Shown one piece after another: positions 1 to 15,924 of a DNA stretch of 22,058 nucleotides; the first letter of the stretch is position 1; the number at the start of each line of letters is the position of its first letter. Below the pieces are notes generated by a model, which searched no databases, was not told the origin of the DNA, and saw nothing but the letters and a program-made list of their open reading frames with translations. The translations under genes and the position numbers were made by a program. Location: the IMG/VR virus record IMGVR_UViG_3300030380_001598, positions 1-22,058 of that record; one strand, given 5' to 3'. The DNA is from a virus.

Positions 1-159
1 TATGTTAGCATGAACACTAAGTAAATCTTTAACTAAACTAACTGGCATCTTATAAACTTCTAACGGACTAATTGATAGTGCGCTAGAAAGAGAATAAACC
101 ATAATTAACGAAACTATTTTAGGGTCTGCTTCTTTACCTTTTAAAGCATCCCTAATCAT
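1..159 (-). CDS. tail assembly chaperone, second (-1 frame) part, partial
   Basis: Fifty-three codons are open from ATG at 157-159 to the left window edge, so the gene is incomplete. The translation contains the stretch ISPLEVYKMPVSLVKDLL, which resembles the C-terminal extension of tail assembly chaperones (the lambda gpT role: chaperoning the tape measure and tail tube during tail assembly). The ATG overlaps the TGA stop of the upstream chaperone gene (ATGA). The frame is exactly the one reached by a -1 slip at the A AAA AAC heptamer at 162-168. It is therefore either the extension of a gpG-gpGT-type fusion or a coupled separate gene. The frame and overlap are seen directly; the role is inferred from position after the tail tube gene and from the sequence style. 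Confidence 0.7.
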   Translation of the reverse strand, partial: MIRDALKGKEADPKIVSLIMVYSLSSALSISPLEVYKMPVSLVKDLLSVHANI

Positions 160-533
160 TCGTTTTTTTGTTCATCCTCCTGCATCATCAACATTGGATT
201 TGGTAAAATCTCTTTAATTTGATTTCCGACAAAAGGACTTAATCTAAGCATATCAATAGTAGATAGGCTTGGTTCTGTTTTGGAGATGAAATTCTCAACC
301 ATATAGCGATACATCGCATTTAGGTCGAGGTCAAACGACTGTGTGCGAGAATCAATCTTCATCACACTATTCAAGGCTTTTTCGGCTTCAAGCCATGTGG
401 GTTCTTTGACCCACACCTTGAGATATTCTTCACTTTCGGGTGCTACTTTAATATAATGTAGCGTAGGCTCTTGTAGTGCAAATAATACACTTTTATCTGT
501 AATAACTTTTTTATCGTTCAACATTTCATCCAC
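156..533 (-). CDS. tail assembly chaperone, first part (gpG-like)
   Basis: An acidic protein of about 122-125 residues, followed by an overlapping -1 ORF and preceded by the tail tube gene, which is the usual place of the gpG-type tail assembly chaperone. It should bind the tape measure protein during tail-tube polymerisation and not enter the mature virion. The first codon of the longest reading is GTG at 531-533, but GAAGGTGG sits right against it. ATG at 522-524 has that Shine-Dalgarno at good spacing and is the better start. The 3' end carries the A AAA AAC slippery site. The call rests on size, position and the frameshift architecture rather than on a diagnostic motif. Confidence 0.65.
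   Translation of the reverse strand: MDEMLNDKKVITDKSVLFALQEPTLHYIKVAPESEEYLKVWVKEPTWLEAEKALNSVMKIDSRTQSFDLDLNAMYRYMVENFISKTEPSLSTIDMLRLSPFVGNQIKEILPNPMLMMQEDEQKNE
162..168 (-). promoter_or_regulatory. -1 ribosomal frameshift slippery heptamer A AAA AAC
   Basis: In the zero frame the chaperone gene reads GAA CAA AAA AAC GAA TGA. This places a perfect X XXY YYZ heptamer (A AAA AAC) two codons before the stop. A -1 slip continues as CGA ATG ATT into an ORF that stays open to the window edge. A -1 frameshift between two overlapping tail chaperone ORFs is well known in lambda and many long-tailed phages. I see no clear stimulatory hairpin just downstream. Confidence 0.65.
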
Positions 534-540
534 CTTCTAT

Positions 541-567
541 ACCAACAAACAAACAAACGGTGTTGGT
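541..567 (-). repeat. intergenic hairpin (7-bp inverted repeat)
   Basis: ACCAACA at 541-547 and TGTTGGT at 561-567 form a perfect 7-bp stem around a 13-base loop made largely of AAAC repeats. It lies in the short gap just before the ribosome binding site of the chaperone gene. There is no U-run after it, so it is not a standard intrinsic terminator. It could protect an mRNA end or tune chaperone translation. Confidence 0.4.
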
Positions 568-573
568 GGAATA

Positions 574-678
574 TTATTCTTGTAATTTACTTGTAGTCTT
601 TTTTGGAGTTTCCTTTTTGGTTTCTTTTGGTTTTTTAACCAATTGTTCTTTGAGGCGTAGTTTATCATACTTATCCAT
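574..678 (-). CDS. 34-residue lysine-rich small protein
   Basis: A short ORF from ATG at 676-678 to TAA at 574-576. It starts five bases after the tail tube stop and has a GGGGTGAT Shine-Dalgarno overlapping the end of that gene, like the sites used by certain genes in this operon. The product is highly basic (KKPKETKKETPKKTTSK) and probably disordered. It fills most of the gap between tube and chaperone genes. I recognise no family. The ribosome binding site and fit in the gap support a real gene, but its length makes this tentative. Confidence 0.4.
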   Translation of the reverse strand: MDKYDKLRLKEQLVKKPKETKKETPKKTTSKLQE

Positions 679-682
679 AAAA

Positions 683-2350
683 TCACCCCTGTAAAATCCA
701 ATGAGTTCTAACTTCACAAGTATTTAGATTTCTAGGCATTACTGTTCCTTCAATAGTGATTGGCCCTTTGTCATCTGGAATTGTAATATTTGCTGAACTT
801 AAGAAGTAATCTTGGAACTTTAATAAAATTTGCTCATTAAGAGTTCCATCGGGAGCATTCTTATCAAATTGCAAAGTGATAAGATTGCTTGTTCCTTCTT
901 CTGTTTGGTCGAGAAGTTCTTCAAATAATTTGTTATCTGTAACCATAGCAGTAAAAGAAATTTCATATGTTCTTTGAGCAGGAACGCCAGTTTTAATTGA
1001 TTTATTTCCAACACCAATAAATCTTTTATCTTGTAAATTATTGTTGATGGTCAATGTCATATTTGTAATTTTAAGGAATTGTTCTCCAAAAATAGTAAAA
1101 GCACCGCTTGAGAAGAAAAACGGTTCAAGTGATTCTTCTCCTGTTGCAGTTAATGTATTTGAACCACTTCCAAAGTTAAATAAATTAGCATTATCATCAA
1201 CACCTGCACGACCTTCATACGCTTCATTTGTTTTTAGTTTATGAACTGCTCTTGTATTTAAATCAAGAGTCATTTTGACTTCTTCATTTTCATTAGCCGT
1301 CATTGTTAAAGTATTAACTCGATTACCTCTTGCAATACGAACAAAGTTATGTGATTCTGTTGCTAATGTAGTATCTCCTGTTCTATGTGGATTTGATGTT
1401 TCTAATTTGCTCATGTTTTGTTCTAATCCAAACGAAGGCAATTCTTCACCATTTGCTTCTCCAAATGTATATTTAATTGGGTTTGTTAGAACACCGCTTG
1501 CATTATATTCTGGTAATGTTAATAGTGCCATATGTGTAGCAGTATCTTGATTTGCTACTGGAGGAATCATAAATGTAGAATCTCTTGCAGTTCTGTAAAA
1601 GATTGGCCCTGTTGATGTAAAACCTGTAATGTTATCGCTAAATGCTTTTGCAGTTGCGCTTTCCCCAATATCCAAATAATGAACATTGTTTGCATGAGCA
1701 GTATATGGTGGGGTTGCAGGGTCTAATGAACCGCTTCCAGTAAAAGTCGCATTAATTTGTGTGCATTTACCTAAAGCATAATAAAGCCATGTTCCTTGAT
1801 TATTAACAATAGCCAAATTACCTCCGCTTGCAGTTTCAATTCCTTTGTATTGATGAGTAAAGTTTCTTGAACTTCCTAAAGATAAATTCATTTGTTTCAT
1901 TTCTACTTCAAGATTAGGGAATGTCGCACTTTCCAAAAGACCTAACCAATTATCAGCACTTAATCGTGCAATAGAACCTGTTAATGTTGTAGGAGCAGGT
2001 GTGCCATATCCTCTAATAACGACATAATCTAAAGAAAGAGTTCCACTTTCCGTAGAATCATCTTGTAATGTTCCTAAACTATGAGCAGGAGAAATTGTAA
2101 AAGATGTAGTATCATTAGCAGTAATAACGTGAGTAGAATGGGCTTCAGTTAATGAAGTAGATGCATCGAATAAATCAACAACACAACCAACGTAGAGATT
2201 TTCTACCATTCTTACGTTACCTGTCCAAGTAGCACCTGCCACTAAACTTGTGCTTGTGCTTGTTGTATCTAATATGACTTTTAAATCCAATTCTGGAATC
2301 ATAGTCAAAGTTGCGCCACTGCCTAAAAATATGTCTGTATTTACTGCCAT
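683..2350 (-). CDS. major tail tube protein
   Basis: A 555-residue beta-rich protein that I read as the tail tube subunit. The C-terminal half (about residues 420-555) has a tube-protein pattern: a beta strand (ITNMTLTINNNL), then YEISFTAMVTDNKLFEELL, then a strand-rich end with GPITIEGTVMPRN. The N-terminal part (about 30-110) contains a Ser/Thr-rich segment with VITANDTTSFTISPAHSL, typical of small beta inserts in phage tail proteins. The gene follows the tail-terminator-like gene and precedes the chaperone pair, the usual order. ATG at 2348-2350 has a GGGGAGA site upstream. It is longer than many tube proteins, perhaps because of surface-exposed added domains. The family is inferred from pattern and context. 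Confidence 0.65.
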   Translation of the reverse strand: MAVNTDIFLGSGATLTMIPELDLKVILDTTSTSTSLVAGATWTGNVRMVENLYVGCVVDLFDASTSLTEAHSTHVITANDTTSFTISPAHSLGTLQDDSTESGTLSLDYVVIRGYGTPAPTTLTGSIARLSADNWLGLLESATFPNLEVEMKQMNLSLGSSRNFTHQYKGIETASGGNLAIVNNQGTWLYYALGKCTQINATFTGSGSLDPATPPYTAHANNVHYLDIGESATAKAFSDNITGFTSTGPIFYRTARDSTFMIPPVANQDTATHMALLTLPEYNASGVLTNPIKYTFGEANGEELPSFGLEQNMSKLETSNPHRTGDTTLATESHNFVRIARGNRVNTLTMTANENEEVKMTLDLNTRAVHKLKTNEAYEGRAGVDDNANLFNFGSGSNTLTATGEESLEPFFFSSGAFTIFGEQFLKITNMTLTINNNLQDKRFIGVGNKSIKTGVPAQRTYEISFTAMVTDNKLFEELLDQTEEGTSNLITLQFDKNAPDGTLNEQILLKFQDYFLSSANITIPDDKGPITIEGTVMPRNLNTCEVRTHWILQG

Positions 2351-2380
2351 CTTTAATCTCCCCTTTCCTTTACTTACTTA

Positions 2381-2743
2381 CTAGGGAATGCTTAATGCGA
2401 ATCTTTTTGCTTCTATACTTAATTTATATCCAAATAATCTTTTTGCTCGGTCATTTGATTCGCTTCTTGAACCTACAAATATTTGATTGAATTTAGAACC
2501 ATCACTTGCAGTATAGCCTCTTCGACCTCGCTCAAGTGCATGACGGGCAATCAAGTATAAAGCCCTTAGCCTATCTCGGCCAAAATTTGAGTCCGTTCCA
2601 GCCCTTTCATCATGAATTGTTCTAATATGCATAGTAAATCCATATGTTTCATTTCTAACGTCATAATGAACAGTAGGGTATTCTATGTTCTGACTGTCCT
2701 CAAAGAAGATAATAACGTCTTTAGATGACAAATCGTATCTCAT
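2381..2743 (-). CDS. tail terminator/head-tail joining-like protein, C-terminal part
   Basis: A 120-residue product with mixed alpha/beta pattern: VIIFFEDSQ, a strand (GFTMHIRTIHDE), a helix rich in Arg and Ala (RDRLRALYLIARHALERGRRGY) and a C-terminal strand. This resembles small tail-completion or terminator proteins that cap the tube at the head end, and the gene lies between adaptor and tube genes as expected. The frame is open further upstream to ATG at 2771-2773 (130 residues). An upstream segment in another frame (2754-2891) reads like the missing N-terminus, so the intact protein is probably about 169 residues and interrupted by one extra base in the A run at 2760-2763. Confidence 0.5.
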   Translation of the reverse strand: MRYDLSSKDVIIFFEDSQNIEYPTVHYDVRNETYGFTMHIRTIHDERAGTDSNFGRDRLRALYLIARHALERGRRGYTASDGSKFNQIFVGSRSESNDRAKRLFGYKLSIEAKRFALSIP

Positions 2744-7590: not shown

Positions 7591-8121
7591 CTAATCCCTC
7601 AATTTTCTTATTGCTTTCATTGTTTCTGAATATAAATCATCTAACATTTTTTCTAGTTTCCTGTCCTTTTTACCCACTATTTCTCTAATATGGTTTGTAA
7701 CTTCAGTCATAAATGAACGAACTGAACTTCCTGTTGCATCTAAATGACTTAATCTTTCATATGATTTTCCACTTCCAAATGCAAATGATTCATTAATAAT
7801 AATATAGTTATAAAGAGTTTTTAGTTTTTTACTAACTGAATCTAATGAAGCGTTTCCTTTCGCATATTGTTTAGTTATAGAAGTCAATTCTTTAAGAACA
7901 TCATCCATATATTTATTCAGTTCCTTTGCATATTCTCTATGAGATAATTCGTGTGTCACTACATTAGCAAACTCAACGACTCTTTCAATGTCATCATATC
8001 CTTCTGCTACTGTACTAAAATTATCCAAGTTAATAGATACCTTATCTTCGTTAGGTTCGTATAGACCTTTGAACCCACCTTCGTTGGTAAATTCATCAAC
8101 CTTAAGAATATTAAACCACAT
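7591..8121 (-). CDS. HExxH zinc metallopeptidase-like protein
   Basis: A 176-residue protein containing HELSH at residues 57-61 (nucleotides 7939-7953) in the context FANVVTHELSHREYAKEL, the classic zincin active-site helix: His57 and His61 would bind zinc and Glu58 would be the base. About fifty residues later IINESFAFG provides Glu111, a candidate third ligand in the gluzincin manner. It is a minimal-size catalytic domain with no signal peptide or transmembrane segment, and the C-terminus is helical and basic. It starts five bases after the GTPase stop, so the two are likely co-translated. It could cleave a virion or host protein. An inactive zincin fold with a structural job is also possible. 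Confidence 0.6.
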   Translation of the reverse strand: MWFNILKVDEFTNEGGFKGLYEPNEDKVSINLDNFSTVAEGYDDIERVVEFANVVTHELSHREYAKELNKYMDDVLKELTSITKQYAKGNASLDSVSKKLKTLYNYIIINESFAFGSGKSYERLSHLDATGSSVRSFMTEVTNHIREIVGKKDRKLEKMLDDLYSETMKAIRKLRD

Positions 8122-8126
8122 AATAA

Positions 8127-8801
8127 TCAGTAGTCCTTAATCATTGTAAATATTCCTTGATAAACTGCTTCGGGTTCTGATTTTGCTGATACAATATATT
8201 TATGCGTCGGTATTCCCACATCATTTAGTTTTTGCATACCATATTTAAAAGGTTCAAAAATCGGATGTTTGTCAATCGGTGCATCACTTTTGTATTTCTC
8301 TCCCCAAATATCATATTTGTTTGCCCAAATAGAAACTGCAATTGGATAATCTGCTTCTTTTTTCTTTCTGCCACTAGGCCACCTATCATTTGTAATTGTA
8401 TCAACTAAAAATTTCCATGCTACTTGATGGTCTAAATTACCGCCTTTATCTAAATGTCTATGGTCAATCATAAAGATAACATATTTGACTTTTCTGGATT
8501 GCATATCTTTAGCCCATTCTTTCCAATATATTGCTTCTCCGCCTATATCCGATGTTCTAAGAGTATTCATTTGTCCATCTAACTTAATAGATTTTCTAGT
8601 TGCTCGGTGACGACCAACAGTTCTTTTTTGTATTGTTGGAACTTCACCTCTTGTTCTTAATTGATGATGTAATGTAGTTTTACCTACCATTGTTGCACCA
8701 TATACTCCAAAATTAATTGCGTGAATTTTTTTGTAAAAACCTAATATTGCTTCTCCGACTAAAATAGCAAAGCCTGTCATTAATGACATTAATGACCCCA
8801 C
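8127..8801 (-). CDS. membrane-anchored Ras/Arf-like small GTPase
   Basis: A protein of up to 224 residues with the full set of small-GTPase motifs in order. The P-loop is GATMVGKT (residues 35-42). A switch I-like VPTI with Thr56 recalls Arf IPTI. DIGGEAIYW starts at 85 (G3, the Arf-type DxGG). NKYD is at 161-164 (G4) and SAK at 205-207 (G5). It should bind and hydrolyse GTP and switch partners. Residues 5-22 (MSLMTGFAILVGEAILGF) are hydrophobic, so it is probably tied to a membrane. The longest reading begins with GTG at 8799-8801, but ATG at 8787-8789 sits in a TAATG overlap with the upstream membrane-protein gene and is the better start. Such a GTPase is very unusual in a virion gene cluster. 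Confidence 0.8.
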   Translation of the reverse strand: MGSLMSLMTGFAILVGEAILGFYKKIHAINFGVYGATMVGKTTLHHQLRTRGEVPTIQKRTVGRHRATRKSIKLDGQMNTLRTSDIGGEAIYWKEWAKDMQSRKVKYVIFMIDHRHLDKGGNLDHQVAWKFLVDTITNDRWPSGRKKKEADYPIAVSIWANKYDIWGEKYKSDAPIDKHPIFEPFKYGMQKLNDVGIPTHKYIVSAKSEPEAVYQGIFTMIKDY

Positions 8802-13422: not shown

Positions 13423-15924
13423 TTACTCTTGTGGTATGGTTAATTCGTTAAACCTATCCTCATAGATGTTCCAGATTCCTTCATCATTATCCTTATCAGC
13501 AGGGGTTTGTTTGAATCCAGTCCATGCAAGCCACATTTTCTTATCCTTTACAGGTAATACTCTAATGTGTAATTTTGTTTCAAACTTGTTTCCTTCTAAG
13601 AAGTATTCATGATAACCATGTCTTTGTAGTCCTAATTCAATTTTACCAGAATCAATTATCTTGTCCTTAGAAACATTCTTTGAAACTTCCGCAGGATATT
13701 TACCTGCTTTTCCAAACAAATCGAAGATATTATCTTCTTCATTAAGTTCAATATACCAATGCATTGTTTCTCCACCAACGGATATTGTAAAGTTTAAATT
13801 ATCATCTTCTCTTAAGTAAATCTTAAAATCACCTTTACGATATTCTTCTGGAGTTTTATATGCTTTCAATACTGTTGGTTCTTTAATAACCTTATCATCA
13901 TCAGCAAAGAGTTTCTTAGTTTTCATATCAAAAGATATGCCATCTCTTTGGTCAAACCAATCTTTAACTTTATTTAATTTACTTTCCAAAATATCTTCAT
14001 AAATAGATTTATGATTCTTAACTAAGAAATTGTGCAATTCTTTCGGTGTCTTAGAACCATTTTCTTTTAGGTAATTAAAACCAATTTGAGTTAATTTTGA
14101 CTGTTTAGTTTTCATAATTTCTTCGGCTTGTGCCTTCCACATATCAATATCAATCAATGCGTTTTTTGACATAAGATTACTTTCTTCAAAGCCATAAATA
14201 GTAAAACCGTCAAAGTCAGATTTGATAATTACATTAGTTTCTCCGTGAATATGGTCTGTAACAATAATTCCCTTTTCTAATGCCTTAACGTCATAATTTA
14301 ATGATTTCTTAGTATCTTGTGAAAGCATTTCCAATGTAACAATCTTATCGGGATATTCAACTTCAGGAACTTCAATAACCTTTGCAGAAAACAAAGTATA
14401 TCTATCTCCATTCTTTTTAACTTCATCAACCTTAACTCGAATAATATCTCCAATATCTACATCTATTTTGGTATTCAATGCTTTACCAACATTCATGTAG
14501 ATTTTTCCTTCAATTTCAGAATAAAACTTTCCTTCTCCTTCGGCTGGCCCTGCCCCTAATGTATACGAATTTAGATTTGATTTTGTAGTTTTCTTATCAA
14601 GAACAATTAAATCCAAATCAACAAACTTTTTCCACTTAATCCACTTAGGATTCTTCCTTGTGCCTATGTAATACGTTGAGGTCATATCCTTGATAACTAC
14701 GCCTTCTGATGTAGGCATATCCATAATCTCTTTCGCATACTCTTCCACATCCTTCAAGTTATCAGCAGTTCTTGTATCTTTCTTTGATGGAAATGCTATT
14801 GCTTCTGTTGAATGCATTGAATAATTGTTAAATAAAGTATTGATTCGATTATCAAGTTCTTCTTCTACTAATTCCTGTTCATTGTGTCGCATAATGTCAA
14901 AAACATGCGCTCTTAACTTAGCGTCAGGGTATTTATTCTTAAATACGTGAGCAATAGTATCAGCACGATGTAATGCTTCATCGCCATCAAATAAAATTAA
15001 TTCAGCATCGAGAATGCAATCTCCATATTTTTTCTTTTTAAGTTCTTCAACTTGTTCTTTGCACTTTTCAGAAATATCTTTTTCATTATAGGAATAGATA
15101 CGAACATTATTGTCAATCTTATGAATCTGTATTCTCATACCGTCATACTTTTCTTGAACAAGGTAGTTTCCTGAGAAGCCCTTTAATTCATTCATGTCAT
15201 CAATATCAAAGATTCTATACATTGGTTTGTTCGGAGTAATAAAATCGCTTTTAGATTTTTGTTCAGACTTTTCAATGCCATCAATTTCCTTCAAGTCCTT
15301 TAAATCTTCTTTTGAGTATTTGGAGAAAAATAAGGTTTCTAATATCTCTAAGGCGGCCTTAACTTTGCTTTCTACCTTTTTTGAGTCTTTATCGTCGCCA
15401 TACTGTTCGATAATATAGAGAGGGATGTCCTCTTCATCTAGGTCAAGTCCTTCCAACCCGTCAGTTATCGTGTCGGCTTCCATATCTTTAATGCTCCAAA
15501 CTTCTTTTGGAAGTGCTTTATCATCATTTCTTAAAGCATAGTGGACAAATTTAACCATTGTTTCTGGAGAAGAAAGTAATCCTTCAAGAACATCCCCTTT
15601 GTATTTTCTTGCGAATGGGTCTGAAATTAAATCAGAACTGAATCGCATTTCTTTAATACCGTTGTAAATCTTTTCAGCGATATTACTTGTTGGGTCTTTT
15701 GCTTCTTTGTTTTCTAATTCGTTTTCTTGAACAAACTTTTTCATTTCTTTGCTAAGTTCATTCAATTGCTCATAGATTTCTCTAATGTCATCAATTGCTT
15801 TACGCCACCTATTCCCATATTCTTTGGGGTCGGTGCGAGCAGATAGATAAGCAACTCTTGTTTTCTCGAAAAGACGTATAATCTCTTCAGAAGAATCCTT
15901 ATCCTTTTCAATGAGAAGAGGCAT
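13423..15924 (-). CDS. ATP-dependent DNA ligase with extra N- and C-terminal domains
   Basis: An 833-residue protein. The nucleotidyltransferase core is clear: motif I EKYDGMR with AMP-accepting Lys259, motif III LDAELILFDG (305-314), IIIa RAHVFDIM (338-345), IV SEGVVIKDM (406-414) and V WIKWKK (428-433), then an OB-fold (about 435-530). It should seal DNA nicks using ATP. Residues 1-230 are helical and do not look like a standard ligase DNA-binding domain. Residues 605-675 resemble a winged helix. Residues 700-812 resemble a LigD 3'-phosphoesterase-like domain (QRHGYHEYFLEGNKF), but the usual LHYDFRLE catalytic segment reads LNFTISVGG, so activity is doubtful. Its place between head genes and just before the protease hints at a role in the head or in packaged DNA. 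Confidence 0.85.
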   Translation of the reverse strand: MPLLIEKDKDSSEEIIRLFEKTRVAYLSARTDPKEYGNRWRKAIDDIREIYEQLNELSKEMKKFVQENELENKEAKDPTSNIAEKIYNGIKEMRFSSDLISDPFARKYKGDVLEGLLSSPETMVKFVHYALRNDDKALPKEVWSIKDMEADTITDGLEGLDLDEEDIPLYIIEQYGDDKDSKKVESKVKAALEILETLFFSKYSKEDLKDLKEIDGIEKSEQKSKSDFITPNKPMYRIFDIDDMNELKGFSGNYLVQEKYDGMRIQIHKIDNNVRIYSYNEKDISEKCKEQVEELKKKKYGDCILDAELILFDGDEALHRADTIAHVFKNKYPDAKLRAHVFDIMRHNEQELVEEELDNRINTLFNNYSMHSTEAIAFPSKKDTRTADNLKDVEEYAKEIMDMPTSEGVVIKDMTSTYYIGTRKNPKWIKWKKFVDLDLIVLDKKTTKSNLNSYTLGAGPAEGEGKFYSEIEGKIYMNVGKALNTKIDVDIGDIIRVKVDEVKKNGDRYTLFSAKVIEVPEVEYPDKIVTLEMLSQDTKKSLNYDVKALEKGIIVTDHIHGETNVIIKSDFDGFTIYGFEESNLMSKNALIDIDMWKAQAEEIMKTKQSKLTQIGFNYLKENGSKTPKELHNFLVKNHKSIYEDILESKLNKVKDWFDQRDGISFDMKTKKLFADDDKVIKEPTVLKAYKTPEEYRKGDFKIYLREDDNLNFTISVGGETMHWYIELNEEDNIFDLFGKAGKYPAEVSKNVSKDKIIDSGKIELGLQRHGYHEYFLEGNKFETKLHIRVLPVKDKKMWLAWTGFKQTPADKDNDEGIWNIYEDRFNELTIPQE

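Follow-up and report, generated by a model that had tools for sequence, protein, structure and literature searches.

The slip heptamer of phage lambda is G GGA AAG, and that of E. coli dnaX is A_AAA_AAG. In lambda G/GT, a slip near the end of G yields a low-copy fusion of two chaperone parts, and tailed phages use -1, -2 or +1 shifts, as described in excerpts of the review by Atkins et al. 2016 (PMC5009743). The same excerpts list -1 shifting for HVTV-1, HCTV-1, HCTV-2 and HCTV-5 and +1 shifting for HSTV-2, and they describe dnaX as a three-part signal, with a Shine-Dalgarno (SD)-like element upstream and a stem-loop downstream of the slip site (PMC5009743). The chaperone pair of Hardycor1 has been assigned a G GGA AAT site (PMC7911831, in excerpt), and one partial-text source counts a single demonstrated archaeal -1 shift, in S. 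solfataricus, plus predictions in haloarchaeal viruses (PMC8211752). The chaperone of HCTV-5 (Druskaviridae) is annotated in GenBank as joined; it has a -1 heptamer, G GGA AAG, with GGAGG 10 nt before it.

Here we analyze a 22,058-base virus record (the window), in which the structural genes lie on the minus strand. Two of its ORFs, called ORF A and ORF B here, very likely encode the G and T portions of a lambda-type tail assembly chaperone, fused by a -1 frameshift (Table 1). The 3' end of ORF A reads CAG GAG GAT GAA CAA AAA AAC GAA TGA, and the -1 frame, already open 5' of the heptamer, stays open for 53 codons beyond the ORF A stop, as far as the window edge. The window ends inside ORF B, and its own B fragment is 53 amino acids long. 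The first-pass annotation had reported a zero-frame A AAA AAC two codons before the stop, leading to a -1 ORF open to the window edge. Both are there in the window sequence; "two codons" is right for AAC, and one sense codon (GAA) separates the heptamer from TGA. We read this as a signal for -1 programmed ribosomal frameshifting of the lambda G/GT kind, the observation being confirmed and the shift itself predicted. The likeness to lambda, including the proposed low-copy fusion through a slip near the G end, is one of description rather than of compared sequences, and the SD-like and stem elements described below are a point of difference. The heptamer differs from that of HCTV-5 and is the one that HCTV-2 is said to use, A_AAA_AAC (PMC5009743, in excerpt).

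Table 1. Coordinates of the frameshift signal and its neighboring genes in the window.
Feature	Position	Strand	Details and basis
ORF A, gpG-like tail assembly chaperone, zero frame	533-156	-	125 aa; stop TGA 158-156
Slippery heptamer A AAA AAC	168-162	-	Direct reading; in-phase canonical heptamer in 155/155 distinct sequences
ORF B, gpT-like C-terminal part, -1 frame	1-168	-	Open to window edge; homologue in the near relative L002 has 79 residues
SD-like GGAGG	176-180	-	7 nt upstream of heptamer; wobble-position conservation, anti-SD pairing energy
Family stem-loop	102-158	-	Arms 158-143 and 117-102; folding z, covariation
ATGA overlap	159-156	-	ATG at 159-157
Tail tube/major tail protein, upstream of ORF A	683-2350	-	PF18906 Phage_tube_2, E 2.5e-11

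Relatives were collected from IMG/VR in four sets, using as queries ORF A (best 80 of 227), the upstream tail tube protein (best 80 of 161, a set independent of the slip site), an alignment of distant A proteins (best 80 of 384) and an alignment of B proteins (best 80 of 214). The first two sets and the window make 157 loci, which reduce to 108 distinct sequences and to 107 once L208 is dropped. The third set added 25 of its 80 loci, and the fourth added 23 of 79 (L014 had already been counted), with four fourth-set loci cut by a contig edge. Left out of the counts were L208, a 4.1-kb contig in which the gene after the tail tube is not ORF A; L170, L174, L178 and L227, with no room after the tail gene; and L345, L354, L381 and L392, with a contig edge before A. 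The resulting 107 and 155 sequences are distinct but related; merging the latter at ≥90% identity over 70 nt leaves 104. In L208, the ORF that follows the tail tube (2190-2717, plus strand) is unrelated to ORF A and encodes 176 amino acids, Glu/Ala-rich by eye; the contig is too short to show whether a chaperone lies elsewhere.

Conservation of the heptamer in relatives was a check that the first-pass annotation had proposed. A canonical in-phase X_XXY_YYZ heptamer is present in all 155 distinct sequences of the gene pair, window included: none has the same ORFs without a heptamer, and in none are A and B in frame with each other or apart. In the 80-locus tail tube set, the heptamer is found in 75/75 usable loci, four others lacking room and one (L208) having another gene next. 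The heptamers comprise AAAAAAC (113), AAAAAAG (22), TTTAAAA (11), AAAAAAA (7) and GGGAAAA (2), and on a tree of ORF A built without the site their class (A6, TTTAAA or GGGAAA) switches three times or more, a pattern which indicates conservation of the X_XXY_YYZ rule rather than of a peptide. As second slip codon, AAC occurs in 113, AAG in 22, AAA in 20 and AAT in none, and Asn codons in eight window genes run to 169 AAT versus 84 AAC. The B frame is open through the slip site in 107/107 members of the first set. As a chance control, we took 1457 distinct plus-strand ORFs of ≥100 amino acids from loci L002-L241. Of these, 176 have an in-phase heptamer of whatever type among their final 10 codons, and 95 of the 176 also have a -1 frame open for ≥50 codons and through the site. 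The heptamer is of the A6 or GGGAAA type used by the ORF A gene in 87 of the 95 (their identity as that gene was not confirmed one by one) and of other types in 8. An AT-rich genome with many A-runs might produce such an overlap by chance, or an assembly indel might, with nothing programmed; against this stand the conservation in 155/155 sequences across many metagenome contigs and the RNA-level selection described below, and we give that reading practically no weight.

The ATGA at the overlap offers another route to B. The first-pass annotation had pointed to this start and suggested that both routes may operate; the start is indeed present in the window, but it is not conserved. We looked for B-frame starts in 144 relatives labelled -1, beginning at the preceding stop. 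No ATG, GTG or TTG occurs in 55 of them as far as 60 nt beyond the site, or in 66 as far as 30 nt beyond it; an ATG within the 60-nt limit is found in 58, and the window has one as well. (These start-codon counts omit L332, which a longest-frame rule put in the +1/-2 group although its B lies in -1; with L332 as -1, the frame counts are 145 and 10.) Because 55/144 have no B start codon, reinitiation cannot be the general route. In a translational coupling scheme, terminating ribosomes would initiate a separate B at the ATGA and the A-run would be incidental. Such a scheme can draw on the window's ATGA, on the 76 of the 144 whose B frame has a start codon of some kind no more than 12 nt from the A stop, and on the strong SD-like element upstream. 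However, GGAGG ends 16 nt before the window ATG, which is far for initiation, and coupling leaves the heptamer phase and the bias in the second codon unexplained. As the sole route, coupling is ruled out by the 55 start-less relatives, and as an account of the locus we judge it very unlikely. The window's ATGA is a local feature, which may add free B protein in the window's own clade. For much of the family, the predicted frameshift is the only visible route to B.

Two further elements flank the slip site, both of which the first-pass annotation had missed. Upstream, an SD-like GGRGG is under selection at wobble positions. In the family it lies at -12 to -8 relative to the heptamer. At the wobble position -9, 104/107 sequences have G, versus 10.6 expected from window codon usage, and at the wobble position -12, 96/107 do, versus 12.4 expected, in counts that treat related sequences as separate, uncorrected for kinship. 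The residue encoded there is mostly Glu (GAG, 73) or Gly (GGG, 31), and both codons preserve anti-SD pairing. The anti-SD duplex averages -11.2 kcal/mol, versus -5.2 kcal/mol for synonymous shuffles, and falls within the best 5 of 100 in 93/107 sequences; other stretches of ORF A pair at a mean of -2.7 kcal/mol. Over the full collection, GGRG occurs within 22 nt 5' of the heptamer in 142/155 and is absent from those 22 nt in the other 13. The three-part layout is as in dnaX, but the gene is different, the second codon here is mostly AAC, and the 7-nt spacer between SD-like element and heptamer is shorter than the 9-14 nt reported for -1 shifts in bacteria, dnaX included (PMC5009743, in excerpt).

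Downstream, a covarying stem-loop just 3' of the heptamer is under selection, starting a few bases past it. Folding z over the 60 nt 3' of the heptamer averages -4.00 in the 104 representatives (<90% identity) and is below -2 in 90/104; for five stretches of equal length elsewhere in A and B, the means are -0.16 to -0.72. The family folds at -18.7 kcal/mol, whereas recoding the same B peptide with synonymous codons gives -9.4 kcal/mol, and in 66/104 representatives 0/60 recodings are equally stable. We defined a 20-pair stem for the family, which was picked from single-sequence folds and hence is no independent prediction; 71.2% of its alignment cells are paired (29% are unpaired), versus 63.2% in shuffled alignments and 42-53% when the stem is slid. 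Stem cells changed on both sides number 267, a value reached by 0/500 shuffles (136 ± 13). Two of five stem measures (pairs with both-side change and pair types) were no higher than in shuffles, and RNAalifold on the full alignment of 104 predicted 0 pairs. Little structure beyond the peptide constraint was seen in four TTTAAAA members (L317, L259, L301 and L265) and five A6 members (L042, L056, L045, L211 and L215). HCTV-5, unlike the window family, has no downstream structure (z +1.2).

By eye on the alignment, 16 of the 20 family pairs are possible in the window, but its best fold differs from the family stem. The minimum-energy structure has a local hairpin, 155-119, in the region of that stem, and an outer helix that closes the hairpin takes up part of the slip site. 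Over 70 nt it reaches -17.1 kcal/mol (z -4.13), and over 60 nt without the heptamer z is -2.85; 4/60 synonymous recodings of the window fold equally well. Rfam gave no match up to E 1 for window positions 1-700.

The make-up of the signal also bears on slippage by RNA polymerase along the A-run, which would give a mixed mRNA population. That process would fit the A7 runs carried by most first-set members (107 in all), and it would also serve the relatives with B in another register (see below). However, the A-run is only six long in 19/107 members, the 2 GGGAAAA and 11 TTTAAAA members have no long A-run, and codon phase is irrelevant to a polymerase, yet the heptamer is in phase. The SD-like and RNA-structure elements point to ribosomes instead. 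We therefore reject polymerase slippage, given the members with A6 only, GGGAAAA or TTTAAAA and given the codon phase, and regard it as even less probable than coupling.

The ribosomal model that we prefer would run as follows. Most ribosomes would terminate at TGA and release G. A minority would pause at A AAA AAC, held by a GGAGG mRNA-rRNA duplex behind and the stem-loop ahead, and both tRNAs would slip back one base (AAA AAC to AAA AAA). Reading would then continue in the -1 frame to give a G-T fusion, which would help the tail tube assemble around the tape measure. This is a new case of a known mechanism, and the three-part signal together with the register switch described below makes it a variant. 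With its 155 distinct sequences, the family is a natural series of variants on one signal in which selection is visible on all three classic parts, and so it forms a ready test set for asking whether internal SD-like sequences and downstream stems act on archaeal ribosomes. The same family could show what decides between -1 and -2 shifts.

A minority of the family, 10 of the 155 sequences, from 12 contigs, pairs the same signal with a B in the +1/-2 frame, again open through the site. The distinct members are L032, L036, L039, L041, L044, L057, L060, L173, L194 and L203; the other 145 sequences are -1. The variant site reads GAA AAA AAG GAT GAT (GAC AAT in L203), followed by TAG, TAA or TGA. 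All 10 keep the SD-like element and have folds of -15.8 to -27.2 kcal/mol. Register changes number at least 6 on the 107-row A tree (starred branches force 4) and 2 on the B tree (starred branches force 1), both being trees of few columns and many open forks, and 5 on the 155-row A tree. The A proteins of L188 and L194 are identical over 117 columns, whereas their B parts and registers differ. Together with the trees, this pair indicates that the register travels with B and that A and B recombine near the site.

Whether the 10 variants shift by -2 or +1 is a question of modest odds, which favor -2. A7 permits re-pairing of both tRNAs after a -2 slip, and a +1 slip on A7 is also possible. All 10 have A7, yet runs of at least seven are also found in 76 of the 97 -1 members of the first set, so that the run is not telling. 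An ATG within 30 nt of the site is present in 9 of the 10 (L203 lacks one). According to the excerpted review, spacers are 9-14 nt for -1 and 3 nt for +1, so that the 7-nt SD spacer here is nearer that for -1, and in an HIV cassette shorter spacers raise the share of -2 relative to -1 (PMC5009743). In single-sequence folds, the spacer between slip site and stem has a median of 3 nt in the -2 group versus 4 nt in the -1 group with overlapping spreads, which supports the spacer idea weakly. It is tempting to propose, though we would sooner expect it to fail than to hold, that the same SD-like element, A7 and stem serve either -1 or -2 shifting; that a one-base loss between slip site and stem put T in the -2 register and shortened the spacer; that archaeal ribosomes set direction by spacer and A-run; and that the shift type has spread between G lineages via recombination in the overlap. 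Phage Mu FS-gp41, a -2 frameshift product, is a fold match to ORF A (E 8.4e-3), and the 10 variant relatives may likewise reach B by a -2 shift. The window's own register is -1, and the slip sequence of Mu differs from the window's.

The first-pass annotation had named the two ORFs as tail chaperones in a lambda G-GT arrangement, and both parts of this assignment gain support, the first from profile and fold matches and the second from gene order. The window ORF A matches phrog_25860 (tail assembly chaperone) at E 6.8e-4, and 13/14 diverse A members match it at E up to 0.1. For B, 12/15 members match phrog_9001 (tail assembly chaperone) at E up to 0.1; the window's own 53-residue fragment has no chaperone family match, its sole PHROG match being phrog_23599, of unknown function (E 0.008). 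Pfam gave nothing above cut-off for A or B, and tblastn of ORF A against phages gave no match up to E 0.01. The predicted model of ORF A (mean pLDDT 81.5) finds as its best fold match an unnamed viral protein (1.1e-13), followed by the HHTV-2 tail assembly chaperone (E 7.3e-7) and the Bacillus phage Gemini chaperone (2.6e-3) besides Mu FS-gp41. Nothing significant was found in the PDB fold search with ORF A, where 2ob9, the chaperone of HK97, has an E of 6.4 and so lends no support. The gene upstream of ORF A also matches phrog_290, labelled minor tail protein (E 6.1e-13). As the window ends inside B, the gene after B is known from the near relative L002, where it matches a tape measure family (E 4.8e-8), completing the order tail tube, A, B, tape measure. 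HCTV-5 shares the order tail tube, G/GT, tape measure. Its G and T parts are homologous to A and B, whose profiles score 21 and 19 bits against them in single-target comparisons, and its T part is longer than here.

Several lines of evidence suggest that this marine, magrovirus-like virus group has an archaeal host (Poseidoniales). The window capsid protein matches 11/11 records of archaeal viruses, representing 7 different viruses. All eight long relatives (G001-G008) have two separate PolB matches, Cpn60 and an ERCC4 nuclease, the last found among control genomes only in archaeal ones; five of the eight records are 90-97 kb, and the others are 66, 77 and 185 kb. The 185-kb record, G004, has two sets of PolB, ERCC4 and Cpn60 and is perhaps a doubled assembly. 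The ICTV profile of Aoguangviridae/Magrovirales describes 90-100 kb genomes with N- and C-terminal parts of PolB, an ATP-dependent ligase and a GroEL-like chaperonin. The two-part PolB, chaperonin and ligase are all found here, as traits read from relatives rather than by comparison with exemplar genomes; the ligase is in the window itself. A magrovirus survey, in excerpt, also lists PolB, ligase and ERCC4 nuclease, and Liu et al. 2021, likewise in excerpt, place magrovirus capsids near Druskaviridae (PMC8651126). The profile also names TFB and MCM; TFIIB was found in 0/8 long relatives, and MCM was found in 3/8 at E up to 0.001 and in 0/8 over the cut-off. The best matches listed for the GroEL-like chaperonin are phages of bacteria and bacterial records. 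The three capsid relatives located in genome contigs (L242, L243 and L244) all come from MAGs labelled Maricaulis (two) and Altibacter (one) and are probably mis-binned viral contigs. No tRNA was found in the window or seven loci.

The first-pass annotation had also noted that, with an archaeal host, the locus would be a useful case of programmed frameshifting in an archaeal virus. As a new case in a magrovirus-like lineage, with the host argued from gene content, this stands; the phenomenon as such had already been predicted in HVTV-1, HCTV-1, -2 and -5 and Hardycor1. The Aoguangviridae ICTV profile labels a tail assembly chaperone and does not mention a frameshift. A literature search for magrovirus and frameshift found the latter only in one reference title, and broader searches, whose coverage did not extend to the original haloarchaeal reports, gave no title on this signal among the matches listed.

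Other genes of the window, all on the minus strand, deserve mention. The gene at 7591-8121 (176 amino acids) has a HELSH sequence, an HExxH-type motif recognized by eye, and no Pfam match above cut-off. Among the structural genes, 8127-8801 (224 amino acids) has weak small-GTPase-like matches (MMR_HSR1, E 0.005, below cut-off). The 833-residue product of 13423-15924 carries a domain of ATP-dependent DNA ligases (PF01068, E 4.9e-29), and its gene lies inside the head-gene block, between the portal and protease genes.
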